A DNA stretch of 64,000 bases, from assembly GCF_032854445.1 (NCBI RefSeq), contig NC_088307.1, positions 11,174,017 to 11,238,016 on the forward strand. Direction: 5' to 3'. The translations under genes and the position numbers were made by a program. The stretch's first letter is position 1. Every line of letters begins with the position of its first letter. The stretch is from Liolophura sinensis (lineage: Eukaryota; Mollusca; Polyplacophora; Chitonida; Chitonidae). Positions 7,801-47,397 of the stretch are shown here, piece by piece. The notes below the pieces were generated by a model. It was not told the DNA's origin. It did no database searches and saw only the letters and a list, made by a program, of their open reading frames with translations.

Positions 7801-8991
7801 CGTGTTAAACGATAGAAGCATCGTAACGTGCTGAATGGTAGCAATAAGGTAACGTGTTAAACGGTGGCAACAAGATAACGCGTTAAACAGTAGCAACAGA
7901 GTAACGTGTTAAACGGTAGCAGCAATGGAACGTGTTAAATGGTAGAGACAAGGTAACGTGTTAAACAGTAGCAACAATATAACGTGTTAAATGAGAGCAA
8001 TAGGGTAACATGTTAAATGGTAGCAATGATGTAACGTGTTGAACTGGAGCAACAATGTAACGTTTTGAACAGAAGCAACAATGTAACGTGTTAAACATTA
8101 GCAGAAGTGTAACATGTTAAAAGGTAGCAATAAGGTAACATGTTAAATGATAGCAACAACGTAACGTGTTGAACAGGAGCAACAATATAATGTGTTAAAC
8201 ATGTGTTAAAACAGCAACTTTTGGGACCATGGCTTTAGCAGAATAAGGTACAAAAATCAGATATGTTAATTACAAATTATTACATGTCAATGAAATTACT
8301 GAAAATGATGTATTGTTATCGTATTTTATAATCGATCGCATTGATTGATTCCACGTTCATCCGGCCGAGAAAGTTTCTTGGCGAAAACTTATTTTTCAAG
8401 TGCCTTTAAGTGTTTAAGCTTTGTGCGTTACAAATTTCCGATTCCGTCAGGGACATCTTCTGGGGAAGAGTTAACGGTACTTCCAGCTAAGCATACATGT
8501 TTCTTGGGTAGTTTTCCAAATCATGTGAATCTCTTGCGAAAAGACTTTTATCCTTTGAAAAGTCAGGAGTTGTAACGGCCTGTATTTTAATATAATAATT
8601 ATTTAATATGTAAAAGATATACAGCATAGATAGTGAAAGCAGAACAGAGACAACAGTCACTCGTAACCGGTGAAATACGGCCTATTGTCAATTTACCTGG
8701 TCAATTTTAAAGCCTTATTTAATGACATTTTCTTCATTTGTAAAATGTTTCTTTCGCTTTGCGTTTCCCCCTTAAGATGGTAAAGGACGGTTTTGGCTGG
8801 GAGCTCACTGGGTGACAGACAGACTTCGGTGGATGAACGGTGAAGAACTACCCATGGACGCTCCTTACTGGCATGAGAACGAACCTTTCAACCCTGTGAA
8901 TAACTTTGTTGTCCTCAGCAACTGGGGCGGCATATGGGCATTGGATGATCAATACCAATCGACACGTTATGGGTTTATCTGTGAATACTAG
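1811..8991 (+). CDS. Secreted C-type-lectin-like domain protein with apple/PAN-like N-terminus, 3 exons
   Basis: Exons are 1811-2096, 6691-6873 and 8777-8991. All junctions are phase 1 with GT-AG introns, giving 684 nt or 227 residues. I chose the ATG at 1811 because it opens a hydrophobic signal peptide (MLLLLLLSLVL); an in-frame ATG at 1724 would put a charged stretch before it. Residues about 20-95 hold a Cys-containing segment with ISDPNCRSF, typical of apple/PAN modules. From about residue 100 a C-type lectin fold follows: TFNQANDACVVSGGHLLVLH, then WLGAHWVTD and the closing YGFICEY before TAG. The outer disulfide cysteines are present. The inner pair is absent (NNFVVL where family members usually have a Cys, and no Cys near WALDD). 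There is no canonical EPN/QPD calcium motif (NEPFNP instead). It is probably a secreted recognition protein, ligand unknown. Other exons in the 4.6-kb first intron cannot be excluded. Confidence 0.8.
2100..2745. repeat. 114-bp tandem repeat in intron 1 of the lectin-like gene
   Basis: About five units start near 2214, 2328, 2442, 2556 and 2670 (exact 114-bp spacing). Each includes GTAAGTTTAATATGGTCTAA and TTGTTGCCCTGGAAGGGACC. Because 114 is a multiple of three, the - strand stays open for 222 codons as a 38-residue repeat. That frame follows from the period and is not evidence of a gene. Confidence 0.9.
2780..3175 (+). other. Possible relic of coding sequence in intron 1
   Basis: Several short frames on the + strand look protein-like: one opens after TTCCAG at 2791-2796, and another runs about 3050-3168 and ends at a GTAAAG donor. 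They lie in different frames and do not join to the phase-1 lectin exons without a stop. I do not recognise the family. It could be a decayed transposon or a lost exon. Confidence 0.2.
3176..6309. other. Remainder of intron 1 with unrecognised open frames
   Basis: A 137-codon frame lies on the - strand at 3683-4096, and an 85-codon frame on the + strand at 5083-5340. Both have protein-like composition, but neither matches a family I recognise. Around 4340-5340 the + strand reads as several interrupted frames. This could be an old single-exon element in decay; nothing identifies it. Confidence 0.25.
6310..6612 (-). mobile_element. SINE family 2 copy, degenerate
   Basis: Read on the - strand it has the head and TCATACCACAGACTTT-like region, a central part with TATAATGTGGG and a 3' end resembling GACTGAAAAATTGTGAAG. 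It matches copies at 20.1, 39.1 and 56.5 kb. It lies just 5' of lectin exon 2. Confidence 0.6.
7595..7740 (+). repeat. tRNA-like SINE head in intron 2 of the lectin-like gene
   Basis: GTGGTCTAGTGG resembles box A, and GGGGTTCATACC lies about 70 bp later as a box B-like element. A short unrelated body follows. A partly similar stretch (ACCGGTGAAATACGGCC) occurs near 8668. It is not a functional tRNA, because no cloverleaf closes. Confidence 0.4.
7745..8210. repeat. 26-27-bp minisatellite in intron 2 of the lectin-like gene
   Basis: About 17 imperfect copies of a unit built on GTAACGTGTTAAACGGTAGC followed by AACAAG. Units differ by substitutions and by 1-bp length changes. Confidence 0.9.
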
Positions 8992-10470
8992 TCAGATCCG
9001 TACACATTAACACGTTATGGGTTTATCTGTGAATACTAGTCAGATCCGTACACATTAACACGTGATGGGTTTAACTGTGATACTAGCCAGATAAGTACAC
9101 ATTAAGACCTTGTGAGTTTAACTGTTAATACTAGACAGATCAATACACATTACCACGTTATGAGTTTATTTGTGAATACTAGTTAGATCAGTACACATGA
9201 ACACGTTAGGGGTTTATCTGTGAATACTAGTCAGATCAGTACACATTAACACGTTAGGGGTTTATCTATGAATACTAGACAGATCAGTACACATTAACAC
9301 GCTATGGGTTTATTTGTGAATACTAGTCACATCAGTACACATGAACACGTTATGGGGTTATCTATGAATACTAGACAGGTCAATACACATTGACACACTA
9401 TGGGTTTATCTGTGAATACTAGTCAGATCAGTACACATGAACACGCTATGGGTTTATCTGTGAATACTAGTCAGATCAATACACATTAACACGTTATGAG
9501 TTTATCTATGAATACTAGACAAATCAATACACATTAACACGTTATGGGTTTATCTGTGAAGACTAGCCAGATCAATACACATTACCCCGTGATGGGTTTA
9601 TCTGTGAATACTAGTCACATCAGAACACATTAACACGTTATAGGTTTATCTGTGAATACTTGTCAGATCAATACACATTACCCCGTGATGGGTTTATCTG
9701 TGAATACTAGTCACATCAGAACACATTAACACGTTATAGGTTTATCTGTGAATACTAGTCAGATCAATACACATTAACACGTTATGGGTTTATCTGTAAA
9801 TACTAGTCAGATCAGTACACATTAACACGTGATGGGTTTATCTGTGAATACTAGTCAGATCCGTACACATTAACACGTTAGGGGTTTATCTGTGAATGCT
9901 AGTCAGATCCGTACACATTACCACGTTAGGGGGTTTATCTGTGAATACTAGCCAGATCAATACATATTACCCTGTGATGGGTTTATCTGTGAAGACTAGC
10001 CAGATCAATACATATTACCCCTTGATGGGTTTATCTGTGAATACTAGTCACATCAGAACACATTAACACGTTATGGCTTTATCTGTGAATACTTGTCAGA
10101 TCAACACACATCAACACGTAATGGGTTATCTGCAAATGCTAGTACTATTTTTGAATACTAGTCAGATCAGTAGCAACTTACCATGTTAGTGGTTTATTTG
10201 AGAATATGCTAGTGAGATCAGTACACATTTACATCTTATAGTTTACCTGTGAATGCTAGTAAGATCAGTGCCTATTAACACATTATGGGTTTATCTGTGA
10301 ATATAATGCAGATCAGTAAACATGAACACGTTATGGGTTTATTTTTGCATGTTAGATACGCCAGTACACACGAACACTTTATGGGTTTACTTGTGCACAC
10401 TAGAGAGGCCAGTGCACATTAACTATGTATGTACGTGTGAATATTAGGCAGATCAGCACACATCACTACA
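8962..10470 (+). repeat. 48-bp minisatellite seeded by the last coding bases of the lectin-like gene
   Basis: The first unit, 8962-9009, begins inside the final exon (ACACGTTATGGGTTTATC ...) and includes the TAG at 8989-8991. The second starts at 9010, exactly 48 bp on, and about 31 units follow, increasingly diverged towards 10470. Nearly every unit keeps TGTGAATACTAG, so the coding end and stop codon are repeated. The period of 16 codons keeps the same frame throughout. If the gene's poly(A) site lies beyond the array, the array is 3' UTR. Confidence 0.93.
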
Positions 10471-17800: not shown

Positions 17801-20800
17801 AAAGTGGCCAGTCCGTGGCTGAAGGGGCTAGCACCCCAGCACCGCGCAGTGACCCAGGAGCTTCTCACCAATGCGATCGCTGTGTCCAGCTCATGCAGGC
17901 TTCTTTCCGGCCATGCGTGGGAAGGTTGGCAGCAACCTGCGGATGGTTGTGGGTTTCCCTCGTGCTCTACCCGGTTTCCTCCCACCATAAAGAACATCAC
18001 TGTCATATAAATAAAATATTCTTGAGTACAGTGTAAAACACCAATCAAATAAATAAAAACAAAAATATTCAGTTCACTGCCCAAACTTAGTGAGTTACTG
18101 ACAAGATCAACTCAGACAATTCAAAGAATAACCTCTAAATGTGTAAAAATGTGCCTTTAGATTTAGGATGTTAAATTGTGGCCACATACATGGAGTGTTT
18201 CAATTATCATAATCTAAACCATTCAACTGAAATATTGTGGGGTAGCATGTAAGGAAGTGGCATAAATATATATTTTGATCACGAACCTGTTTCCAATCAT
18301 TTTCACTAGAAACTTCAGGCCTTAGCTATGGAAAGCATGCAAGGTTTAATTTTGGTTAAAATTGTCCTTTTTCGAGTTCATTGAATCATTTTTTACGTGT
18401 CAGTGAAAGGCTGCATAAAACTTCATCAGTATAGGTTGCATAGCCACATGTATCTTCAGACATCCTGAAAACGTTCAAATTTTTGGAAACGAACGTGTCT
18501 ACTTTTTTTGTATATTGACAGGTGGTTTAGGTCTGGGGATTTTCGACGCTTGCCTGGTGACAGAAGAACTAGCATATGGGTGTACGGGGGTCCAGACTGC
18601 CATTGAGGCCAACTCTTTAGGGGTAAGCTCTGTTCTGTGTATGAGGGTCTTCTGTAACCAAAGTGGTTAGATGCCAGCGCGGTGCAATGATCTTGGAGGT
18701 CAAGTCCATCTGTCAGCAACTTGCGGATGGTCGTGGGTTTCCCCACGAGATATTCTAGAGTACGGCGAAAAACATGAATCAAATAAATAAATGTTCTGTT
18801 TATAGCAGTAACATATTGTGTATTATGAAATAATATAGATTATGGATGGATTCATTTATATACACTGAACAGTAGGAACGGTAGTAGGAGCGAATGAAAA
18901 AACAAAAAACGTGAAGCAGCTCCATGGAAAAATTTGGTGGTCTATAAATCAACATTTTACTGAAAAGCCAGGAAATCTTAAAACCTTACATTTAAAGTGT
19001 GAAATGCTTTCAACTATTGAATGATAGTGATTAACTTCAATGACTTTCCTCATATGAAACTTGACATATTGTAATTCTACTTCAAAATTCAAAAGAATTT
19101 TTGCATCATTTTTTTTTTTTTTTTTTTTTTACTCCCGTAACAGCAAATGCCAGTTATCATTGCTGGAAATAAGGAACAGCAGAAGAAATATCTGGGGAGG
19201 ATGATGGAAGAGCCGCTGTTGTGTGTAAGTAGATTGTGGGGATCAGGATGGAAATATGAAAGAAAAAAAAATGACCAATCACCATCAAATCCATCAAAAA
19301 TCCATCATCTTTGGTTTAAAGCAAAGATAATAGTATAGCCATAGTTATGAAACAACATTAAGGGCCACATCCAATTTGGTTTATATCTGACCAAACATAT
19401 GTTTAAATTGCATAGGGTTATACGCGCTTACAAAATAATAAAAACACGCAATACAATTGTGGCCATGTGTTTACAGTTTCGGGTCAAAAACCTTTTCTGT
19501 TTATCTTTGATGTTTCCAGGCTTATGGTGTGACAGAACCAGGTGCTGGATCAGATGTGGCTGGAATTAAAACAAAAGCCGTCAAAAAGGGGAATGAATAC
19601 ATCATAAACGGTCAGAAAATGTGGATAACAAATGGAGGTGTGGCTAACTGGTATTTTGTCTTAGCAAGAACAAGCACTGACCCTAAAACACCCGCGGGTA
19701 AAGCCTTCACTGGGTTCATCGTGGATGCTAACACCCCTGGTGTTAACCCAGGACGTAAGGTAAGGAGACAGCAAATGGTGTTTGTTCTCCTGTTCATTCC
19801 TGCATGAATTTCACAGTTCTCGATTCTGGCCCATGCTCCTGATATGAGTGAGACTGATATCCAGATATCATTAATTAAAAACAGGTGATGACAACTACCA
19901 TATCTAGGGCCAGTTTAATTTGGGCCCGTGCTCCTGATACGAGTGATACTGATATCCAGATATCATTAATTAGAAACAGGTGATGACAACTACCATATCT
20001 AGGGCCAGTTTAATTTGGGAAAACACCTGTGGGCTTCCAGACTAATAAAGCTGAATTGTAACTGTCAATTGAAAAAAATATGATTTTTACCGTTAACGTT
20101 TATAAGTTTTCATATAAAGTTTCTCAAAGTCTGGAGACCCAGGATCAAACCCAGGTCGGGTCATATCAAAGACTTTAAAAATGGCACTTGTCGCTTGGCG
20201 CTTAGGACTGAGAGGTTAGAACAAGGAAACAGGACTGGTTGACCCAGTGTCAGCAAAATGTGGGTTTGCGAGGTGTCATGTCTGGTGTCATTGGCATGAT
20301 ACTTCAGTGGGGGGCAGCACTTTGGCAGCGTGTCTGGTGTCTTTGGCATGATACTTCAGTGACGGCAGCACTTTGGTGGCATAGACTCGCCCTGCCACAA
20401 GAAAACACAACATATGTGAAGACACAACGTATGTACACACACCAAATGACTCTTTGTCGTCATAAATTGTTAAGTACGATATTAAACCCCAAGAATTCAT
20501 TCATTCAAATGAAGTTCATTCACACCTTTGCATTTTATAAAATTTCATAATGCATGATCACAATGTCACCTTTATAGCTTATTATCAGAACCTTCAAGTC
20601 GGGTCACACCTAAGACATTTAAAGAGAAAGTTGGGATATTGCAATGACTAGTTGACCGGTATCAGTATAATGGCTCGGGCGGGGCGGAGCGTAAGTTGTC
20701 TCATTGAAGCAGCACTAGATAAAAGAGCGGTGGAAATCCATCTTGGGTACGTACACTCTAAGGACCCTTCGTCGTCATATGACTGAAAAATTGTTAAGTA

Positions 20801-23800
20801 CAACGTTAAACCCCAAAAACTGACTCACTCAGAACCTTCCATTTCTTTCAAGACGCAGGTATTTCCCTGCGTGAGGTGACTTAGGTGGAAAATGTGTATG
20901 TTATGTCATCCCACAGACTTAAAAATGATAGTTTTGTCTTCTTTGTTGATGTTACACCTATAAACAGGCAATATTACTTTGGTGGCAGAAAATAAAGGCA
21001 GGCACTGAATGTAGCAAGCCAGCTTGATTCCTCATTAGTTTTGCCAGGCTTTGCTTTTGACCAAACTGCTGTACAGAACAAAGGTTTGCTGGATAATGGT
21101 GTTGCAGTTTAACAAAATGTACATGTATATGATTGACGTGTGTAGTCAATGTTTGTTTCTCTGTTCTGTTTTATGTGTTTTCAGGAAATGAACATGGGCC
21201 AGAGAGCATCAGACACAAGGGGGATAACTTTTGAAGATGTTGTTGTTCCAGCAGAGGTGGGCAGTTTTGGGGTGTTTTACCGTGTTCGAGAGGCTTAAAT
21301 GGCGCCTCTTCCTTTAAGAATTTTCTCAAGTGTTCAGCTCCTCAAGGTCAACTCTAAATTACTTTTTGTGGAACTTTCTTCAGATGCCTATGTTACAGTA
21401 AATGTGATCCAAAATAGTTACCTAATATTTTTAACAGGTCACGTGATACAGACTAAGTAGAACTTTTAACTTTAGTGACGAGTTCAAATGTGAAACGTAC
21501 TTATTCAACAGAAGTGCAGAATATATCACTCCTGTGTTGGTAGGGAAGCTAGGAAATATAAAAAAAAATTCAAGGTTAAATGCTTCAATTTGACTGCTTG
21601 TTTTTCTGATGTTAGTGTATATGCATCAGGTGATGTGCTCAACTCTCTTTCTTGAATTAATATCCATTTCAATTCATTTAATTACTATTTTAATTTTGAT
21701 GTCAAATTCAGTTTTCATAAGCTCAAATAACTATCGAATAGTGAAGTCAAATCTTCCTCTTGACAAGCTGGAGAAAAGCTGTAGCAGAAGAAATTAAACA
21801 AGGAACCAGAAACGTGATAACAATTAGCAGGTGCATAATGTGGCTGATCTATTTCATAGAATGTCCTGGGTGAAGAAGGAATTGGTTTCAAAATTGCCAT
21901 GGGTGCCTTTGACAAAACCCGACCTCCGGTGAGTGCTTCGTATGGAAACAGTTGTTTACCTAGGTCGCTCTGTCTTTCATATAGTACTAAAATGGAGTAC
22001 TTTTTTGTTCGCCAAAATGATAAGAACTTCTCTACAGTAGGAGATTACTAAATAACAACTGTATGCTATAATTTGTTCTTTAAGTCAGCATAGTTTCTAG
22101 CATGCATAATGTGTTTTTCGAGTTCAAAGTTGAATCATGAGTTGCACAAGGTTTGACATCTCATTTTAAATTGACTTTCGCCTGCTGCTCATCTTAAGAG
22201 AGTAAATCCATTTCAGTCCAGTTTCGATACAAATGTATAATATGACTGGTAAGTGGATTGTGAAATTTTCTGTACCATCAGGGCCATTTCAACAATCTTA
22301 GTAAATAATTGTTTCGTAACTCTTCACATAAGTAATGATGCCATAACCTACAGCCAACACCATTTACTAAAATGTCACGGGCAAGATAACTTGCCTGTGA
22401 GTGCTACAGGGAGACAACTGTGTCATGTAACTTGATTTATTTGACTTATTTATTTGATTGGTGTTTTACGCTGTGCTCAAGAATAATTCACTTATACAAA
22501 GGCGGCCAGCATTATGGTTGGTGGAAACCGGGCATAGCCCGGGGAAACCCACGACCATCTGCAGGTTGCTAGCAGACCTTCTCACATGCGGCCGCGTGTA
22601 ACTTGAATGATGCAGTAAGTTATTGTGATGACATGGTCCTCTATAAGGTGGCCGCAGGAGCCGTGGGTCTGGCACAGCGGGCATTGGATGAGGCGACCAA
22701 GTATTCGATGGAGAGGAAGACCATGGGCAAGTTCATCTGTGAAGTGAGTAAAGACAGCGGGCCATGGGCAAGTGGCTATAGGTTTTGTGTTTTAACCGCT
22801 TGGACACCCGATGTATGAGTTGGACCCAAGCCTGCAACAGGGAGTTTATAGATTCCCTGACTGGTATGGTTTTGTTCGATCTGGGTGATAGTAAAACGGT
22901 CGACAACACTGGTGTGGCACCTTTAGCAGACTAACACATCAGGAAGCATACAGATTGTACAGATTTAACCACTTGGACACCTGATCCATGGGTTCAGCCC
23001 AAACCTTCAACCGGGATTTTTGTAGATTCCTTTCCACCGTTACCCGATCTGGGTGATAATAAGACCGTCAACAACGCTTGTGTGACAGCTTTAGCAGTTT
23101 ACTGACTGATGCAGTAGACAAATAGAACAACATGGCAATTTTTGAATGGTATACAACATTACACCCTTGCTGTGGCTGCTTGTGTGGCCATGGTGACAAT
23201 AAATGGTCAGCGATGCTCACGTGGCTGTTTGTGCCTTAATAGTCCGAGTGCACGGACTGTTGGTTGAGAAATATATTGATACGCCATATTCACGGGCAGC
23301 CATGGTAGATGCATCAGAGAATCAGTTTATATTTGCTTGACGAAATGTATTTGATAATGGTATCAGCTTGACATCAGAGAAAGTTAGTTTTCTCAAATTG
23401 TTTTGAAAATGTTTGGGTACAGCGTTTATGAGAAGAAAGCTGCTGAACCCGAGTGCCTGACAGTGATACATTTCGATGGCAAGTTTCTATTTGGCAAATA
23501 AAGTCACACTATAGGTAATTCCAGTCAACAAATATTTAACATCATGGTTTTTAGGTGGTTGGATATGTTTTGTTGGCTATTTCACGATCGCATGGTTTTT
23601 GTCCGCCAGGGTTTTTGTCCGCCGGGTTTATGTCTGCGGAGCTTTTGTCCGCCGGGTTTTTGTCCTGGATTCCTACTCAGACTACCATCTTAATATTCGT
23701 TGAAGACCAATATGGTGTCAGTACGTCCATATGTGGAAAAGTTTGTCCGTAATTTGCCTCAGGTGTGTGGTTTATTCCAAGCACTCTGATTTTCTCTACC

Positions 23801-26800
23801 CATAAATCTGACTGCTGTTATATGTATTATTGAAAAATTCTTTCGTTACAACATTAGACAACAATCAAATAATTAGATGAGTAAATCTGTGATATAAGTG
23901 TTGTAGATCAAAAATCGATTTGGGTATGGCATTCAGGGTTTTTTGTTTTAAGCAGAAACATGATAAAAAAAAAATTTGACTTACACATTTTTCACTGTGC
24001 TTGTTATGTTGTAATATTAGAATAATATAGATGTGCAGTACAATGAGCACTAAAACTTTGGAATAAAAACTTGGAAAAAATTTTTGAAGCAAAACTTTGA
24101 AACAAGAATTCAGAAAAAAAGGTTTGGAACAAAACTTATGTATTGAATCAGGTGTGTTGGTGAACTGAGTGCAGTTCAGTATTAAAATAACCTGTTTCAT
24201 CTAATGATTTGATAGTGCACTCCACCATGGCAGCCACATGTACATGTATCCACTCCACTTTTCTTGTTTCCATCCTCACAGCATCAAGCAGTGTCGTTCA
24301 TCTTAGCAGACATGGCCATGGGGGTAGAGATCGCCCGTCTGGCCACCCAGAGGTCAGCCTGGGAGATCGACCAGGGCAGAAGAAACACATACTACGCTTC
24401 CATCGCTAAAGCTTTCGCTGGAGATGTGGCTAACAAATGTGCAACGGATGCTGTACAGGTAATATTATGGTTTGTCATGACCGTATACTTGTTGTTTTTT
24501 TTTCTTTATCCTTTTCTGGTTAAATAAACCAGATAGCTGTTTTGATTTTTTTTTTTTTTTTTGATTGGTGTTTTACGCCGTACTCAAGAATATTTCACTT
24601 ATACGACGGCGGCCAGCATTATGGTGGGTGGAAACCGGGCTGAGCCCGGGGGAAACCCACGACCATCCGCAGGTAGCTGACAGACCTTCCCACATATGGC
24701 CGGAGAGAAAGCCAGCATGAGCTGGACTTGAACTCACAGCGACCGCATTGGTGAGAGACTCCTGGGTCATTACGCTGCGCTAGCGCGCTAACCAACTGAG
24801 CCACGGAGGCCCCTAGCTGTTTTGAGTGTGTATCATTTTGCATCAACAAATCGTGTGGAAAAAAGAAATACAAGAGAACATGGCATTTTACGTGTTTCCT
24901 ACGACATGGCCCTCTACTTCCTCGGGAAGGTCTGCCAGCAACCTGCGGATGGTCGTGGGTTTCCCCCGGCCCCTGCGCGGTTTCCTCCCCCCATAATGCT
25001 GGCCACCGTCGTATAAGTGAAATATTCTTGAGTACGGTGTAAAACACCAGTCAAATAAAACAAAATAAATCCACTTCCTCTGCTGGTGGGCCTTGGTCAT
25101 AATAAGTGGCTGGTTGTTCCACCAATGAGGTGTGAATATCTCTATGTTGGGAAAGTTCGTCAGTAAATTGCCAAAGCTCGGTGGATTATCCCAGGTACTC
25201 AGGTTTCTTCCACGCATAAAACTAACAACCATTCTATACTTTAATTCTTCAACTGTTACAACAGCCTCTGTAACCAATGCTTTAAAATATTCTGAGAAAC
25301 CTTTGGGGTGTGAAAGAAATAATGTTTCAGTTTTATCTTAAATGTTACAAACAAATCATTTCAAGCAACATTGTTGTAACTCCACTGAAAAAATTGCCTT
25401 TATTGGTTGAAAATGTTGAAGATTTACTGTAAGTGAAAATTCGTGAGTGGCATTAAACAGTTATTGGATAAAATGAAAAGATATATTTAGATGTCCTGTA
25501 TTTGACTTTTTGCCGGATGCTAACAGTTCTCTGAGCTTCACCACCAAATGTAATATTTCCTTTATTTGCCTCTAAATTTTGGGTGAATTTTATGCCATAT
25601 GTGGCATGTACACTGTACATGTATATTTGCCCATGCTTGTTATACATTTGCCCATGCTTGTGATACATTTGCCCTTGCTTGGAATACATTTGCCCATGCT
25701 TGAAATACATTTGCCCACGTTTTGTATACATTTGCCCATGCTTGTAATACATTTGCCCTTGCTTGTTATACATTTGCCCATGCTTGTTATACATTTGCCC
25801 ATGCTTGTAATACATTTGCCCATGCTTGTTATACATTTGCCCATGCTTGTTATACATTTGCCCATGCTTGGAATACATTTGCCCATGCTTGGAATACATT
25901 TGCCCATGCTTGGAATACATTTGCACATGCTTTAAATACCTTTGCCCATGCTTTGTATACATTTGCCCATGCTCGTAATACATTTGCTCATGCTTGTTAT
26001 ACATTTGCCCACACTTAGAACACATTCAACTTCTTTTGCTTTGTTTTATCTATGAACTAAGCACTATTTTTAAGTAAATTGTGCTTATTTTACTCACATT
26101 TATATACAAAACTTGATGGGAGAGGGGCCTCTCTACCTGAAACATCTATGGGACTGCATTTTAAAAAAGGCTCATTTAGTATTTATTATGCAACTTAAGG
26201 CTTAAGCCATAAATTGCAAGTGCTTAAAAAGCCACATTCAGAACAGGAAAGAACTCAAATTGTGTTTGGTACATTGTTCTGCAGTAAAGAATCAATGTGT
26301 TGCTGTGCAAGAATTTTTGATATACGTCTTGAAGACATTTGCTGTTGGAGGGAACCCAGCACTTTTTTTTCAGTTTAACATGAGCTTAGAAGTGAGTCAT
26401 TTCCTACTATTGTTTTACAACCTGAAACCTTGTCGTAATCAAAACTGTCAAGTATGTGTGTTAGATTGCATGATTAATAAGAAAAATGTCTTTTGTTCCA
26501 CAGGTTTTTGGAGGAAATGGTTTTAACAGCGAATACCCTGTGGAAAAACTGATGAGGGATGCAAAAATTTATCAGGTAAGTTTGCTTTTGCCTTTTTCAG
26601 TTATTGTAATGCTTATAGAGTGTTGCCAGAGTCCTACTTCAGCCCTGTTTTCTCGCTTTGCATTCAGTATGAAGGTGATAGTGCAAAGACTAGTTGACCC
26701 GTACCAGTATAATGGCTCGGGAGGAGCGGCTTGTTGCCGGCTAAGTTAGAGATCAGTAGTTTTCCCTGAGCAGTCTGATTTACTCCACCCATAAAACTGT

Positions 26801-38300: not shown

Positions 38301-41300
38301 TCATGGGAAAAGTTGCTCTCCTGAAAGAAAAAAAAAAAGCAAGCAATTAGAGATAGCAAAGATGTTTGTCACTGCTCCCATCCAGAAAAATATAAACATA
38401 GCACACTCAGCCAATGCACAGTATTAATATAGTTCTAAGGGATTGAGTATACTTGTGTGCTGATATCCTTGACCTCCTTGGTGGAAGGGTACAGCAATCA
38501 TCAGGCAAGTATGCACAAGGGCAGACAACTCCAAAAACCAATGACACTGTGAAAATTAACCTGATCGATGGTGCACAACTGCAGGTCATTTTGCACATTT
38601 TGTGTGACTTTCAGAATCATGTCTGAAATAATAGCTACGGCTTCGCTGAAATACGAATGGCCAGGAAAATATGCCCAAGGGCAGACAACTCCTAAACAGA
38701 TTGAAATGTGATATAATAACCTGATGGCGTACAACTTCAGGTGATTGTACACACTTTGTACGAGTGAGCAATTTTGGGACCTCACAGCCATATTAAAAAT
38801 TTGTGGGTTGACGACAAACCAGAGAGGAGGTTTAACATTGTAACCGCTTATGGATTCAGAGAGCCAGTAATGTCCTACTGTCTATTAGTACATTGGAAAT
38901 AAAGTAGGAAGTTTAATGCTTTTCTATATAATATCGTAATTTATATTTCTTAACATACTAATGTAGATTTCACCTAACCACAGGGGTCGAAGTATGTTTA
39001 TGCCAAAATCAGAAAAACTGTCTTCTGCCATTATTATTATTATACGTGTGCATTATTTATTTATATGTTTATAACTTTATATTTTCAATGTGAATACAAT
39101 TGGTCGAGCGTCTGCTTCAGGAGCGGTAGACCCAGGGTCAATCCTTGGCCGAGTCACACCTAAGACTTTAAAAGAGGAAGTTGAAACTTCCTCGCTTGGC
39201 GTTCAGCATGAAGGGGATAGTACGACGACTGGTTGACCCATATCAGTATAATGGCTTGGGTGGGGTGGCTTATTTGCCTTTGGTAAGGCGTCTCAGTGAA
39301 AGCAGCACTAAATAAAAGAGCGGTGAAAATCCGTACTGCAACAAGGAGGAACATTAAGTATTCCCTCGTCATCGTATGACTGAAAACATTGTTAAGCACG
39401 ACATTAAAGCCCACGCACACACTCAATGTTTATAATTATTGAACCCCACTTCTCACGTAAGTCTACACATACATTTTCGTGAATCTTTACATTCAATCAC
39501 TTCATGTACAGTACTCAAAAATCACTATATTAAATGCTACAGAATTAGAACAGTAAAACTAAATTGGTAGTGCCACTGTGTCACTCCTTTTGTTAGGCGA
39601 ACTGTCTGATGTCTCACTGACCGAGCAAGCGGGAAACTTGACAGCCTGAAGCGTATGGCTTGTATCAGGAGTGATCACATGACTATTTCAGTCAATCAGA
39701 GTCCATTGGTTTGTGGATTCATAATTTTTTTGACAGACTTCAGTGAGGTCAAAAATAGCATGTTGCTCAACCTAAACATTTTTTGACCTGTATGACTCAC
39801 TGAGACTTTCACCAGTTTTCAAAACATGTTTAGAACACTGTCAGTTTACTTTATCAAATCATTTAACTGTCATATTGTTTATGTATCTGTCGCTCTTTCT
39901 GGGGACGTTAATATGGGCCATGCTGTAATCTAAAGGCCTGGTTTGAGAATCTCGCGCCTTAATGATCCGCATAACTCTGAACGGGATGGATAGATGCAAA
40001 AAACGACTGCTATCGCTCTTAACGAGGGGGGATATAATGACGGGGGGGATATAATAAGAAAGTTGATACACTCCAACATGAAATTCTCATGAACTTACCA
40101 ATCAAGCTAAAATGCAATGAAATTTTTTTTTGTAATTTGAAAAACGCCACACAAAATTCTAAATTTTACAGCAGGGTTTTTACACACACAATTTCATGGC
40201 AACTTGCTTTGTAACCAACTGATTTTGTTACCAAATGTACATTTCTACTTTCCACTATTAATGCTGTGCTAATGAGGGCTGAATCGGTCTGCCTTCCTAC
40301 ACTAATTACACAGCTGCATTATCTGACCATCATCTACATTAATAATGGCATTATCAGCAGAAAATCCTACACTAATACTGATTAAATCAATTCACCATGC
40401 TACGTGGACACAAATCATTTTGACTGTCCAAAAAACATTTCCAAATGTTTTTTGTATAAACATTCCAAAAATAGATAAAAAACAGAAAAAAACACATCAA
40501 TAATATTTTCAAACTGATAAATGCCTTTTTTTTTTTTTCGAGATGTGCTGCCAGTCATCTCAGCATCTCGGGTTAACTCTGGTAGACAGAAACCTGATGG
40601 ACACACATGTCCAAGTGTGTAGACAAGGTTATTCAGAAAGTGAAACTGAAACTTACGAGTACGCCTGTCAATCACCCTCTTGAAACAGCTCACTGGAATG
40701 ATCCCCTGCATATTTCCTGGACTCAGAATGACGTTATTTGCTGATCTAAAGAATGGTATTCCAACTGAAATGAGCAACAAAACACAAGGAACTAGAAGCT
40801 CACCACTATCACACTTGTAGCAGGCTTCTAGAATTCCACTACCATTTATTTCTATTCTAAACAAGATAGAGATCTGAAGGAAATTAAGATTTAGAGATAA
40901 ACATTCTACCATAATCCCAATAAAAACTTTAGAGTGAGGCCTTTTTTGGAAGGCAGGGTGAGTTGTACCATAAACACATTTTAATGACGGCATTGTAAGT
41001 GGAGAATGAGTTAGTGCAGTAGGGTGTGGGTCTGGCAGTCAGTCATAAGCAGACCACAAGCATTCTACTGGCAAACCACTAGCAAACCACTAGCAAACCA
41101 CTGGTAACTCTGCTGCTACATTTACAGCTGCATTCAACTGATTTACTTATTTATTTATTTATTTGATTGGTGTATTACGCTGTACTCAAAAATATTTCAC
41201 TTACATGATGGCAGCCAGAATTATGGTTGGAGGAAACTGGGCAGAGCCCGGGGGAAACCAGGTTGCTGGAAGACCTTCCTATTTAGATTTGCATTGTGGA

Positions 41301-44300
41301 TAGATAAATGCCTCTAACTCTGTGAGTATATATTCGACAAAACTGCTATAACTCCCAGACATGTTTGAAAGCCATATGACTTGAAAATGAAGACAATGAG
41401 AATGAAATATTAGTGCTCTTCTACTGAATGTGAATGAAACTACCTGTACTGTCTGAGTGTGATGGACTTATAGATAACGAATTGTGTGTCATGCCATACT
41501 CAGAAATATTCTGGGGAAAAACAGATTATCAGCTTCATGTGTAGTGGAAATGGGAATGCTCAAAGTAAAACAATCTGTTGAAGATCCACTATGCCTAATG
41601 TTGACAGGGATTTACATGACAGTAGGCCTACCTCTAAGTGCCCTCCCTATGTCAATGCTGATGATGACAGTACATCGTTTAGGGATTCCTGCAATGAGAA
41701 AAGACTAAAGATTAAAGTTGTTTATTAAAACTTCACCATTTAAAAATTTTTCTGTTTCCTTTTTCATGATCCTTGCATGTTCAACATCAAAATGTGCAGT
41801 CTATTTTATATTTTTAGTAGTCCGTCTTTTCAACACAAAATTTAAAGAGTGGAAACGGACAACAAATAAACCCTTCAAAATATTCTCAAAGATTTAGTCT
41901 CCCTCCCCCCCCCAAATTTACATTTAAAATTTTAAAGAATGATGGGTATATAAATTTCCTTTTTGCAGGTTTCTTTCAATCTTCCTTTTACAGAATATTC
42001 TCAATTTTTTAATTCTCCACTGAAACAATCGCTATCATGTTTTATATACCCATCTTCCAAAATCTTCTCACTAGGTGCTTAGGTGTGAAAAGTTCTCACC
42101 TGAAATATGTCTTACCATGGAATAAGGAGAGATGTTTAACTTTAATAATGACCACAAATAACACTACAGAAAGTGAATATGTTCTATACTCCTGCAAGAC
42201 AATCTTTGATACGAGTCATATGTAACTTACCACTGATGAATTCTGAAGAAAGTTTGCCAGGGACAAAGTGAATATGTCATCTTCTCCTGAGAGACAATCC
42301 CTGAGGTGAGACATTTAACTTACTTCTCATCAATTCTGGAGAATGTTCATCAAGGACAAAGCGAATATGTTTTCTTTTCATGAAAGGCAGTCTTTGATAT
42401 TAAGACATTTAACTTACCACTGATAAGTTCTCATGCGAGACAAACCCTGAGGCAAGACACTTAAGTTACCACTAATAACCTCTGGAAAGTGGTCATCAGG
42501 GGCAAAGTGAATATGTTTTCTTTTCCTGACAGACAGTCTCTGATATGAGACATTTAACTTACCTACGATGACCTCTGGAGCATGTTCATCAGGGACAAAG
42601 TGAATATGTTCTCTTCTCCTGTTAGACAAAACCTGTGGTGAGACATTTAACTTACCACCAATAACCTCTGGAAAGTGGCCATCAGGGACAAAGTGAATAT
42701 GTTTTCTTTTTTTGACAGACAGTCTCTGATATGAGACATTTAACTTACCACTAATAACCTCTGGAGAATGTTCATCAGGGACTTCACCTCAGAGACAATC
42801 TTTGATGTGAAACATTTAACTTACCACTGATAACTTCTGGAGAATATTCACCAGGGACAAAGTGAATATGATCTCTTCTCCTGTTAGACAAAACCTGTGG
42901 TGAGACATTTAACTTACCACTGATAAAAAAAAGAAGAATATTCACCAAAGAAAAAGTGAATATGTTCTCTTCTTCTGAGAGACAATCTTTGATGTGAGAC
43001 ATTTAACTTACAACTAATAACCTCTGGAGAATGTTCATCTGGGACAAAGTGAATATGTCTTTTCTCCTGTTAGACAAAACCCGAGCTGAGACATTTAACT
43101 TACCTCTAATAACCTCTGGAGAATGTTCATCAGCGACAAAGTGAATATGTCTTTTCTCCTGTTAGACAAAACCCGAACTGAGACATTTAACTTACCTCTA
43201 ATAACCTCTGTAGAATGTTCACCAGGGACAAAGTGAATATGTTCTCTTCTCCTGTTAGACAAAACCCGAGCTGAGACATTTAAGTTAGCTCTAATAACCT
43301 CTGGAGAATGTTCATCAGGGACAAAGTGAATATGTTCTCTTCTCCTGTTAGACAAAACCAGAGCTGAGACATTTAACTTACTTCTAATAACCTCTGTAGA
43401 ATGTTCATCAGGGACAAAGTGAATATGTTCTCTTCTCCTGTTAGACAAAACCCGAGCTGAGACATTTAACTTACCACTGATAACCTCTGGAGAATGTTCA
43501 TCAGGGGCAAAGTGAATATGTTCTCTTCTCCTGTTAGACAAAACCCGAGCTGAGACATTTAACTTACCTCTAATAACATCTGTAGAATGTTCATCAGGGA
43601 CAAAGTGAATATGTTCTCTTCTCCTGTTAGACAAAACCCAAGCTGAGACATTTAACTTACCACTGATAACCTCTGGAGAATGTTCACTCGGGGCAAAGTG
43701 AATATGATCTCTTTTCTGGCGGGATAAACCCTGAAAAAGCAGTGAATGATCACCTGGCTGAGTGAGTAAACAGTCACAGAGAATTCATCACATGTTAAAA
43801 CAGGTTAGGGGCTGAATTAAGTATTAAGAAAGCAATTTACAATTTACTGAATGCCATGATTCAATAAAAGGGATAGGGTTTTGAAGAATTTCAGCCCTGG
43901 TGTTGCCTCACTACAAAATCAGCTTGATAAAGACACCGGACATGACACCTGGCTCAGTCACACTGTACTGGTGCCTGGCACATCCCTACTTTACTTACAC
44001 ATACATATGTCTTTAATTGATTTATTTATTTATCTGACTGGAGTTTTACGCTATACTCAAGAATATTTCACTCATATGACGATGACCAGAATCAGGGTGG
44101 GAAAAAACCTGGCAGAGCTCAGGGGTAACCCAAGATCATCTGCAGGTTGTTAGAAGACCTCCCCACTTAAGACTGGTGAGAAAGCCAGCAAGAGCTGGAG
44201 CTGAACTCACTGTGCATGACTGCATAGGTGAGTGACTCCGGGAATAGAAGGCCACCGAACCCAAATATTATTGCTGGAAGACAAATGATATTCAACAAAC

Positions 44301-47300
44301 AACACACTGTGCAAACTGCCACATTAGCAGAATTCAGCACTTTGCTGTTCAAGGCCGGGTTTAAAGTTCCAATTTTAAGTAAGTCCATCCCAGCTCTACA
44401 TACATGTACTATTGTGTTTCAATTTTGATACATTAAAATTTGAGGTTATATAGCGCAACATGTTTGATAGCAATACGAATGAAGCACATAAAATGAATAT
44501 ACCTCTTTTTTAATAGAATTCCAGTTTATATGAGATGTACCATGTAACACTTCTGGGGCTTCTGACGCTGTTCTAATTTCCTGCATGTCCACCTTGACCT
44601 ATAAAACAAAAATAGTTTCCACAATGACCAATGGAAATGATCATAATATATTGTAAGCCAAAACATGTAGTTGTTGTTGTTGTGAAGTTACCACAAATGA
44701 ATGAACCTGGGAAGTGAATGCAGGTCAAATTTCACCAAATTCATTGAGAGAGATGAGGTTTTAAATATGGAAATTATTTCTGGTTTACTTGATGGTGATT
44801 GGTGACACTAGCTGCAGGCATTGCTGAAGTAATTTTTATTTCATTAGAAATGCAAGATGATTTTGACCCCTTTTAAATATTTACAAAATTATAATAGGAT
44901 TGCTGTACAACTAGATTCATGCTCAATTCTGACACAAGTGGAAATAAATGCATTTTAAGCTTCAGCTCTGTGGTGGTGGATTCTAAGATGAGAGCTGACC
45001 TAGTTATCACAGCATCGGAAAAAGCATGAACACGGTGTTTCAATAATTTTACCGTATTTTATAAAAGAAAACAGAAAAAAATCCTCCTGTGAATGCAAGA
45101 AAGACAAAGGAGCAAAACTTTAAATTCTTCAATTCTCACAAACTTAGAGAATAAAAATTATATCTCTGTATAAGTTTGAGGAAGGTATAAAATAGTGAAA
45201 AATCACCTAAGCGGTATTTTCTTAGCCAAAACTTTTAATATTTTGTTGTAACACTGAAGTCTTCTCAGGAGTTACCTATACGCTGTTGCAAAGTTAATAG
45301 GTGGTTAGTAGACTGAACCTGACAGCACAAATGACAGGAGACAGCGCAGATAGATTGACCCGATTAATAAATAGATCACGGACCTCGGCAGAATTTGGTC
45401 AGAGTGGAAAGGTGGTGACTAGCTGCATTTAGTGCACAATGGCCTTGAGGTCAAGTTCAACAGAACACCTTTCAGCATCAAGGAACCAAATGACAGCTTT
45501 CGTTCTTTTTTCTCAGCTGTTTTTTGCCAGTGGACAAGGATTAAAAGAAACTGGAAAGAGGTAGCTCTAACAACTGACACTATTCCAATTTTTGGCAGCT
45601 GTTGTAATAACATGCGCTGAGGATGACCGGCAACCTTGTGCGGGTAACTCTAATATACCCTTTGAGTGCTACACAGTTAAAGCGCTGCATTTAGGGAAAC
45701 AAGGGACAGATCATCTCAATTTGGGGTCATCCTTAAAAAAATTTTTTACTGAGCGTAACCCAGGCTCATGCAAGAAAAGTATGGTTGGTTAGTAGGGATT
45801 TTTTTTTTATTCTACATGGGTATTGGTCATGAAAAAGACAGGGATTTTGAAAAAATTAAAAATGAGAAAGAAATACACTATGCCATTGCCAGTGTGGCCA
45901 TTTTTGCAGGGTTTTATTAGTTTGGTTTCCACCCTATGAACAAATTCTTAATGTTGGCCTTGTACAGAATACCTGTCCAATCAGAATGACTGTACCTGAA
46001 TGGAATGGCCCTGATTAGCTCTGATTTGACGTTTTCCTGTGATTGGACAATCTCTCAGGTTGAACCTCTTCTTCGAGTCACGTCTCACAATTGCTTCCAC
46101 ATCTGCCAAGGTGTATTCCGACTTTATCCTTAAAATGTCATCTACGACTGCATACCCATCTGCAAGAAGAAAGAGGACAAAAATGTCTTCTTGGATGTAC
46201 TGTACATGTATGAATGATTAATCATTAATCATTACATACTTATATGCCATGTAGGGGCCTCCTTGATCTTGGGGTTACTGTATGTGTTAGCTTAGCACAT
46301 TATGACTCAGGAGCTACTCAACAATGCAATCAATGTGAGTCCATCTCATGCTGCCGGGCTTCCTCTCCAGTCGTACATGTGAAGACCTGCCCACAACCTG
46401 CGGATGGTCGTAGGGTTTCCCTGGGGCTCTTTCAGTGAGCATGAAATATTCTTGAGTACGACGTAAAACACTAATTAAATAAATAAATGGAATGACATGT
46501 CGAGAACAGGGAGCTATGGGACCACGGTTTACTCCAAGCTTGTGGCATCTTATGCAAGGATGCTGTGGGTATGGGAAGTTAATGCTACAGACTTTTTTTG
46601 AAAGGAGAAGTGATATGAAGCTGTGATAGAACCTTGACAAGTATGGAACACCTGGTAATGAATGTTAAATTGTCATGGATTGTCAATAAATTGCATTAAG
46701 TCTAGTACTAACAGGACATACATTAATGTTGTGTAAGCTCGGCTAAATATATGACATGTACATGTATAAAGTGTTTGCTGATCTGTCAACAAGTGGCAAT
46801 ACAAAGATCAATAAGCCGAGGAGCTTTCTTTGGTTGAAAACGTTCATTAAGCTATTATCGCTATCTTACATATAAACTGCACACAATACATATGCATTCT
46901 CTAAGACAGATCGGAAACTAGAGATCACAATCTTCTTAGTAACATAGGCGTGGGTGAAGACAACGGTCCTCCCAACATTGCTGCATCGGAAAATGCCTAT
47001 TTCTGAATGGCTGTGAGTGATCTTGTATTGTTGGATTTGTATAATTTTCAGCCTTCCAGATAGTTTGTGTTTTTCTGCAGAGCTTTCATGATGTTAGTTT
47101 GTACAGCTAGGCCTTACTGGTCACTACTGAAGAGGTAAAAATTGACCTTTCCCCCAATGCCTTACCATTAGGTGGTCATTTTGTTATACACACCGTAACC
47201 CCCAACTACCAACATGTCTTACAAAATAAAGCTGAACCCTGTTGTACATGAGCAGAAAATTCCTGTATATGATGTCGAAAAATAAGATAAACAAATAAGT

Positions 47301-47397
47301 AAAAATATATACCTGATGTTAGATGTATGCCTTCTTGACCTGCAGTGTGGCGTAAAACCTTGGCCATGTAACGTGACAGGGCCTCGTGGCTTCCCAT
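38301..47397 (-). CDS. TRPT1: tRNA 2'-phosphotransferase (KptA/Tpt1 family), 7 exons
   Basis: Removes the splice-junction 2'-phosphate from ligated tRNA, using NAD+ and producing ADP-ribose 1'',2''-cyclic phosphate. Exons in transcript order: 47397-47313, 46159-45996, 44598-44503, 43730-43661, 41688-41632, 40764-40657, 38320-38301. All are GT-AG, phases agree, and 600 nt encode 199 residues. Family features: Arg16-His17 in AKVLRHTAG, DGYAVVDDIL, Arg75 in RQIRANQGHS, then EVLHGTSHINW, GLSRQKRDHIHF, SPEVISG and Arg164 in GIPFFRSANNVILSPG. These give the conserved Arg-His-Arg-Arg set. The Met at 47397 lies two codons after an in-frame TGA. It is either the start or follows an acceptor at 47400-47401, with a possible 5' exon at 48086 and above. 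The tail after the domain is short (ends RTREQLFP) compared with human. Exon 4 is the first unit of a 17-unit tandem array. Confidence 0.93.
39095..39425 (+). mobile_element. SINE family 2, near complete, in TRPT1 intron 6
   Basis: It has a tRNA-like head (TTGGTCGAGCGTCTGC, then CAGGGTCAATCC), GTCACACCTAAGACTTTAAA, AGTATAATGGCTTGGG, and 3' end AACATTGTTAAGCACGACAT. Confidence 0.85.
39426..40656. other. TRPT1 intron 6, remainder
   Basis: AT-rich unique sequence with nothing recognisable. The long - strand frame over 40415-40993 is TRPT1 exon 6 extended into both introns. Confidence 0.5.
41142..41285 (-). mobile_element. 5'-truncated SINE family 1 in TRPT1 intron 5
   Basis: Tail (TTTATTTGATTGGTGTATTA), body, and truncation near GGAAGACCTTCC; about 20 bp around GACCATCC are deleted. 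Confidence 0.8.
42225..43730 (-). repeat. Tandem array of 17 copies of TRPT1 exon 4 with flanking splice signals
   Basis: The authentic exon, 43661-43730, is the transcription-first unit. Sixteen more follow towards lower coordinates. Donor hexamers (ACTTAC on the + strand) start at 43655, 43562, 43469, 43376, 43190, 43098, 43006, 42912, 42819, 42743, 42650, 42557, 42412, 42318 and 42225. Variant donors start at 43283 (GT lost) and 42464 (GTAACT). Spacing is 92-94 bp except two units with deletions (52 and 76 bp). Units encode variants of VLSNRRREHIHFVPDEHSPE against GLSRQKRDHIHFAPSEHSPE in the authentic exon. Exon-to-exon gaps are about 23 bp, too short to splice out, so at most one unit could be used per transcript. 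Four extra units (ending at 42539, 42632, 42725 and 42894) keep AG acceptor, GT donor and 70-nt open frame. Confidence 0.95.
44015..44245 (-). mobile_element. Diverged SINE family 1 in TRPT1 intron 3
   Basis: It has the tail GACTGGAGTTTTACGCTATA, the body and part of the head (GAGCTGAACTCACTGTG). Confidence 0.75.
44610..45990. other. TRPT1 intron 2
   Basis: No repeat or exon recognised. Overlapping open frames near 45419-45792 on both strands have no support. Confidence 0.45.
46250..46488 (+). mobile_element. SINE family 1 in TRPT1 intron 1
   Basis: GTAGGGGCCTCCTTGATC head, shortened body, tail ACTAATTAAATAAATAAATG. Confidence 0.8.
46489..47312. other. TRPT1 intron 1, remainder
   Basis: Nothing recognisable. 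Confidence 0.45.

Follow-up and report, generated by a model that had tools for sequence, protein, structure and literature searches.

A probable 'mirage' minisatellite born from exon 4 of TRPT1 in the chiton Liolophura sinensis

Tandem repeats that run across exon–intron boundaries are described in amphioxus as 'mirage' minisatellites, with examples in Adh3 and the globin genes BflGb6 and BflGb9 and, as cited there, in TnC and PGBD5 (PMC3087553, PMC3902484). In these papers, the repeats lie at either edge of an exon, AG/GT is present in many units though not in all, the units of a cluster evolve in concert and those at its boundaries are divergent, copy number differs among haplotypes or cells, and splicing is apparently undisturbed; the repeats are proposed as a source of new introns (PMC3087553, PMC3902484). 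The published unit length is given as 10–160 bp (PMC3087553). Here, we analyze a stretch of 64,000 nucleotides from the chiton Liolophura sinensis (NC_088307.1, positions 11,174,017 to 11,238,016; hereafter the window), in which exon 4 of the tRNA 2'-phosphotransferase gene TRPT1 is followed by 17 decaying copies, U1–U17, at a period of about 93 bp that reach to about 42.1 kb. This array is probably a neutral, exon-born minisatellite of the mirage type that the splicing machinery would have to ignore.

Like the amphioxus repeats, the chiton unit spans an exon–intron boundary (70 nt of exon and 23 nt of intron) and, at 93 bp, has a length inside the published range; splice signals are found in many copies but not in all (GT in 15 of 17, AG in 6 of 17), and the copies near exon 4 are homogenized (97–98% identity), with exon 4 at 90%, the far copies at 81–85% and U17 decayed. 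The chiton array differs in belonging to Mollusca, another phylum, in having a unit that holds a whole 70-nt exon, and in that the rate at which such arrays occur is estimated from a small, unselected sample of exons. Furthermore, it comprises 17 copies, whereas 6 and 3 copies are described for the two haplotypes of amphioxus BflGb6. A literature search, judged mostly by titles and the openings of abstracts, turned up no report of mirages in a mollusc. Since the chiton array appears to share every mirage feature that we assessed from the sequence, we read it as an element known in kind but placed in a new phylum.

Three further systems invite comparison. In human segmental duplications, minisatellites in the form of internal tandem repeats are reported at exon–intron boundaries, where they can alter the splicing pattern (PMC2812944). 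They resemble the chiton array as repeats at exon edges that are able to change splicing, but for the human cases new introns or retained repeats are described as supported by RNA (PMC2812944), whereas the chiton array is examined here as DNA. In the model of Rogers, as cited in PMC3087553, introns are gained when AG/GT proto-splice sites become duplicated in tandem. The chiton array, a repeated succession of AG and GT, is raw material of that kind, yet what is seen here are the repeats and not a new intron position. Clusters of mutually exclusive exons of the Dscam type likewise consist of exon copies in a row, each with its splice sites. The chiton row resembles them in that one copy at a time would be usable by frame, and differs from them in that its copies look neutral and that 11 of 17 have no AG before the exon start.

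Host gene and anatomy of the array

The Liolophura assembly is reported to have been built from 14x PacBio HiFi data with a mean read length of 8,347 bp, with public transcriptome data listed for the five samples SAMN35319765–SAMN35319769 (PMC11068029); the species, first given as L. japonica, has since been corrected to L. sinensis (PMC12441733). TRPT1 lies on the minus strand of the window with six recognizable exons:

47313..47397, minus strand: TRPT1 exon 1; the start is the first ATG seen, and further upstream exons are possible
45996..46159, minus strand: TRPT1 exon 2
44503..44598, minus strand: TRPT1 exon 3, which holds the HGT motif
43661..43730, minus strand: TRPT1 exon 4 (70 nt), from which the array derives (GLSRQKRDHIHFAPSEHSPEVIS); aligned to 7yw2
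42113..43637, minus strand: probable mirage-type minisatellite, 17 copies (U1–U17) of exon 4 plus 23 nt of intron; lower end approximate
41632..41688, minus strand: TRPT1 exon 5
40657..40764, minus strand: TRPT1 exon 6 with the RSANN motif; 3' end presumed from GTAAGT

The joined protein covers positions 4–177 of the 177 positions of Pfam profile PF01885 (E 3.5e-51), aligns to the solved structure 7yw2 of tRNA 2'-phosphotransferase 1 (E 1.8e-33), and has the motifs LRH, IRANQGHS, HGT, KRDHIHF, and RSANN all in place. The Tpt1/KptA family is described as having an Arg-His-Arg-Arg tetrad, and removal of Tpt1 in mouse as giving no phenotype (PMC6333775), which weakens an earlier description of the chiton gene as essential-looking. 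In the alignment with the 7yw2 chain, LRH, IRANQGHS, HGT, and KRDHIHF of the chiton protein find their counterparts. Judged by its spacing, the fourth arginine of the tetrad may fall in exon 4.

The unit of the array consists of the complete 70-nt exon 4 followed by 23 nt from the start of intron 4. An origin of the unit inside the exon, at AACAG, was our first idea; it was dropped because the truncated copy U14 opens with the exon's own first four codons, GLSR, directly after CAG, so that the unit must hold the whole exon together with the start of the intron. Tandem Repeats Finder (TRF) reports the array with a period of 93 (score 1374) and also of 186 (score 1622). A reading made from the sequence alone had already derived the array from exon 4 and its intron edge, at a period of 93 bp and at 42225..43730. 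Origin, period, and place all hold; the 16 copies counted there become 17, of which U10 and U14 are truncated and U17, from 42205, is strongly decayed, and the lower end moves to about 42.1 kb. That the units are related to exon 4 at all is borne out by exon 4 aligning to the distal copy U12 with a score of 97, compared with 22 for the best of 200 shuffles.

We searched the genome (609,464,459 bases, 632 contigs) with the 93-nt unit. Among the best candidates, which alone were scored so that lack of a match is no proof of rarity, 16 matches were obtained, and all of them lie in the window (exon 4 and 15 copies); an origin from a dispersed repeat is therefore unsupported and was rejected. With a query unit modeled on the copies near exon 4, identity amounts to 97–98% in the six copies adjoining exon 4, 90% in exon 4 itself, 82 to 98% in the middle copies, and 81–85% in U13, U15, and U16, the farthest three matched copies. 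As the anatomy of the unit shows, a tandem duplication captured exon 4 in full together with 23 nt from the start of intron 4. Based on the identity gradient and the 186-bp period, we propose that the row was afterwards extended and homogenized by slippage or unequal exchange, mostly near exon 4, with formation of 186-bp dimers.

Tandem arrays are prone to assembly error, and the row might in principle be an artefact or a collapsed or expanded repeat. Individual copies, however, are distinguished by private substitutions and indels, the HiFi reads are stated to average 8.3 kb and are thus longer than the array (PMC11068029), and similar arrays are present at other loci; we consider an artefact extremely unlikely.

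A separate observation concerns exon 4 and its closest copy, U2 (window 43638–43730): 9 of 24 columns differ in the 5' part, compared with 4 of the remaining 69 (Fisher P 0.0005, with the copy and the split point picked after looking), which looks as if sequence had been exchanged between the array and the coding exon in its 3' part.

Splice signals, reading frame and constraint on the copies

The donor GTAAGT is intact at the same place in 14 of the 17 copies, in agreement with its earlier attribution to most of them; in U13 it reads GTAACT, and in U4 and U17 it is lost. An AG precedes the exon start in U9, U11, U12, U13, U14, and U16; in U1–U8 it is missing at this place. Two properties were not part of the sequence-only reading: The 93-nt period is in frame, and four distal copies possess both AG and GT. 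The corresponding features are as follows:

43196..43730, minus strand: exon 4 and U1–U5, a single open frame that continues in phase into exon 5 from each donor position; U4 donor lost
42825..42894, minus strand: U9, complete open 70-nt cassette, AG before and GT after
42656..42725, minus strand: U11, complete open 70-nt cassette, AG before and GT after
42563..42632, minus strand: U12, complete open 70-nt cassette, AG before and GT after
42470..42539, minus strand: U13, complete open 70-nt cassette, AG before and the weaker donor GTAACT after

Because 93 nt equal 31 codons, a shift to the donor position of any of the copies 1–5 would lengthen exon 4 by 31 residues per copy and stay in frame. 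Every extension up to copy 5 being open, one might imagine that the donors of U1, U2, U3, or U5 are used as a ladder of alternative donors yielding length isoforms. Computed pairing with the U1 small nuclear RNA (snRNA) is even stronger for the donors of copies U1, U5, U6, and U12 (−10.7 kcal/mol) than for the true donor of exon 4 (−9.1 kcal/mol). An in-frame period, though, has a chance of one in three, and the periods of other arrays are 46, 89, 67, 65, 77, and 80; moreover, the ladder lacks a rung at U4, pairs weakly at U3 (−5.6 kcal/mol), and would interrupt the catalytic domain by an insert. We therefore regard such isoforms as very improbable. Competition between the splice sites of the copies and the exon 4 donor is nevertheless possible, and since several copy donors outpair that of exon 4, position and exon definition rather than donor strength would have to explain correct splicing.

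In the 20 nt before the AG, exon 4 has 14 pyrimidines, exon 5 has 16, and exon 2 has 18, compared with 10 of 20 in U9, U11, U12, and U13. Because exon 4 has the better pyrimidine tract and its donor is met first, normal splicing would connect exon 4 with its neighbors, exons 3 and 5, and leave the copies within the intron.

Each of the four cassettes, with an AG, 70 open nucleotides, and a GT, could replace exon 4 in frame between exons 3 and 5, and each retains the arginine two residues before HIHF. This raises the question of whether they act as mutually exclusive exons, so that TRPT1 would come in variants whose active-site segments differ. The reading frame would impose such exclusivity, because exon 4 together with U9 or U12 shifts it and leads to immediate stops. 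The same stops would allow a different use, namely as poison cassettes whose inclusion beside exon 4 causes mRNA decay and sets the TRPT1 level. Spacers of 23 nt are probably too short to serve as introns, which counts against mutually exclusive exons, as do the poor pyrimidine tracts of the cassettes.

Both proposals can be measured against the variation among the copies. In the exon-derived part of U1–U16, differences are spread evenly over the three codon positions (40, 39, and 41 of 349, 346, and 349 cells), and the ratio of nonsynonymous to synonymous differences (pN/pS) is 0.89 when ten open copies are compared with one another and 0.84 when they are set against their consensus, in contrast to 0.59 for exon 4 against the same ten copies. 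The residues GLSRQ of 7yw2 are kept in exon 4 and in none of the complete copies. U6 and U7 have a frameshift in common, and U8, U10, U14, U16, and U17 are frameshifted, truncated, or stopped. The coding constraint that would mark a mutually exclusive cluster is thus not seen in the copies (40, 39, 41; pN/pS 0.84–0.89), and an acceptor, an open frame, and a donor come together in 4 of 17. With a neutral codon-position pattern, a pN/pS near 1, and GLSRQ lost from every complete copy, mutually exclusive use is very unlikely. For a poison cassette, conservation is no greater than the neutral expectation and most random inclusions would act alike, which makes this role very unlikely as well. Selection on the copy donors was considered as well: The 16 columns from the donor on vary little, but a 16-column run as quiet as this appears in 9.7% of column shuffles and is not significant for any such run (P 0.097), and the idea was rejected. 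Because of the even codon positions, the pN/pS values, the retention of GLSRQ in exon 4 but in no complete copy, and a donor quietness that stays within the shuffles, the copies appear to evolve as free sequence, and exon 4 appears to be constrained; the copies would have decayed accordingly after their birth and would be silent.

Several observations weigh against a neutral and silent array. In four of 17 copies (U9, U11, U12, and U13), a complete open cassette is flanked by AG and GT, and most copies have an intact donor; variation amounts to 3.5% in the 16 columns from the donor on and to 3.1% in the donor columns, compared with 11.6% in the exon-derived part; and the pN/pS of the copies is slightly below 1. 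The pyrimidine count is a weak measure, since the genuine exon 3 scores just 12 of 20. The identity gradient, measured as it was with a query modeled on copies near the exon, is not smooth but broken by U10 (98% over 51 nt) and by U12 and U7 (93%). A bolder interpretation would be that the minisatellite is turning into a mutually exclusive cluster and that U9, U11, U12, and U13 already substitute for exon 4 at a low level, yielding TRPT1 enzymes whose active-site segments are altered. We judge this to be very unlikely; if true, the many arrays at exon edges in this genome would form a standing reservoir from which new exons and introns could arise. The neutral mirage-type minisatellite hence remains our preferred explanation.

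Exon-edge arrays elsewhere in the genome

The TRPT1 array had been regarded as an unusual arrangement. This view is not supported by the rest of the genome, where arrays accompany three of the four TRPT1 loci found and five of 48 sampled kinase exons, nor by the fact that the class has been named in amphioxus. A family search found four TRPT1 places; the window contains one of them and contig C6 the other three, and exon-derived arrays are present at three of the four. In one C6 copy (L005 5686–7286), the end of exon 2 and the donor are repeated at 89 bp, and 17 of 18 donors, the exon's own counted, read CTGGTGAG; in another (L007 7478–8448), repeats of the exon 2 end follow at a 46-bp period, in an array ~480 bp downstream. 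For the 31-bp array at the third C6 copy (L005 9428–9842), derivation from an exon could not be shown, and this locus was counted as negative. As a side note, L005 and L007 (C6:460–470 and 505–515 kb) contain several TRPT1 copies together with very many minisatellites, among them a 51-bp array at L007 9163–10000 that lies in the intron just upstream of a C6 TRPT1 exon 2 and hence on the opposite side from the mirage.

For an estimate of frequency, we turned to kinases, for which a survey gave 135 places (131 of 842 candidates scored). Forty-four short-frame matches were listed before their sequence was seen, and 28 of these loci were examined, as 12 and then 16, with the second batch retrieved after the first had been viewed; 20 neighboring exons, whose edges are approximate, were added by tblastn, resulting in 48 exons with 94 edges. 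Mirages were read by eye, and an array within 40 bp was taken as contact with an edge. Five of the 48 exons, which were sampled regardless of repeats, carry mirages, at donors or acceptors: three of 12 in the first batch and one of 16 in the second have one at the sampled exon itself, and the fifth (L063) has it at a neighbor exon. On the donor side these are L060 (67 bp), L069 (65 bp), and L063 (77 bp, neighbor exon at the locus edge), and on the acceptor side L053 (80 bp) and L052 (37/73 bp). The thirty best, mostly long kinase matches (L019–L048) showed no array near the ends of the match, and these ends do not necessarily coincide with exon edges; L038 has a 29-bp repeat inside the match. 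Three of the five mirages (L052, L063, and L069) are located at the RDLK/LDLK region of the kinase domain, two ending and one starting there, a clustering that may reflect where the family matches are centered.

The idea that exon edges are hotspots of array birth found no support in this small sample: 5 of 94 kinase edges touch an array, whereas points placed at random in the flanks would do so 8.1 ± 2.2 times (P(≥5) 0.96, P(≤5) 0.12). Arrays cover 9.2% of the kinase-exon flanks (7,466 of 80,896 bases), a value that may include mirages of unrecognized exons. The genome is rich in minisatellites, and because edges touch arrays no more often than flank points do, albeit in a small sample, mirages look like a by-product of this high minisatellite load.

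The window holds further arrays on its plus strand. At 8962–10143, a 48-bp array has as its first unit the terminal part of a C-type-lectin-like exon, TRYGFICEY followed by a stop (array against exon end, score 51; best of 200 shuffles, 24); the lectin match is weak (E 0.00036, 21.7 bits, cut-off 22.6). At 2101–2730, the unit of a 114-bp array opens with GTAAGT; the array starts just after a possible exon end near 2096–2100 and has a diverged first copy at ~2124–2158 (score 33, compared with 23 for the best of 200 shuffles). No Pfam match was obtained for the supposed exon. Finally, 19511–26746 contains acyl-CoA dehydrogenase exons (PF02770, PF00441; the piece at 22573–22815 is just under the cut-off), and a 21-bp array at 25625–26011 lies between exons of this gene.

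In the papers considered, exon-edge minisatellites are described for lancelets and for some duplicated human genes. The interest of the chiton array lies in its occurrence in another phylum, in a unit that comprises a whole exon and includes cassettes in frame, and in how frequent its kind appears to be: A genome with mirages at roughly a tenth of the sampled exons (5 of 48) would amount to a natural experiment in how the spliceosome picks the correct site among near-identical decoys, and in whether exon-edge arrays give rise to new exons and introns.
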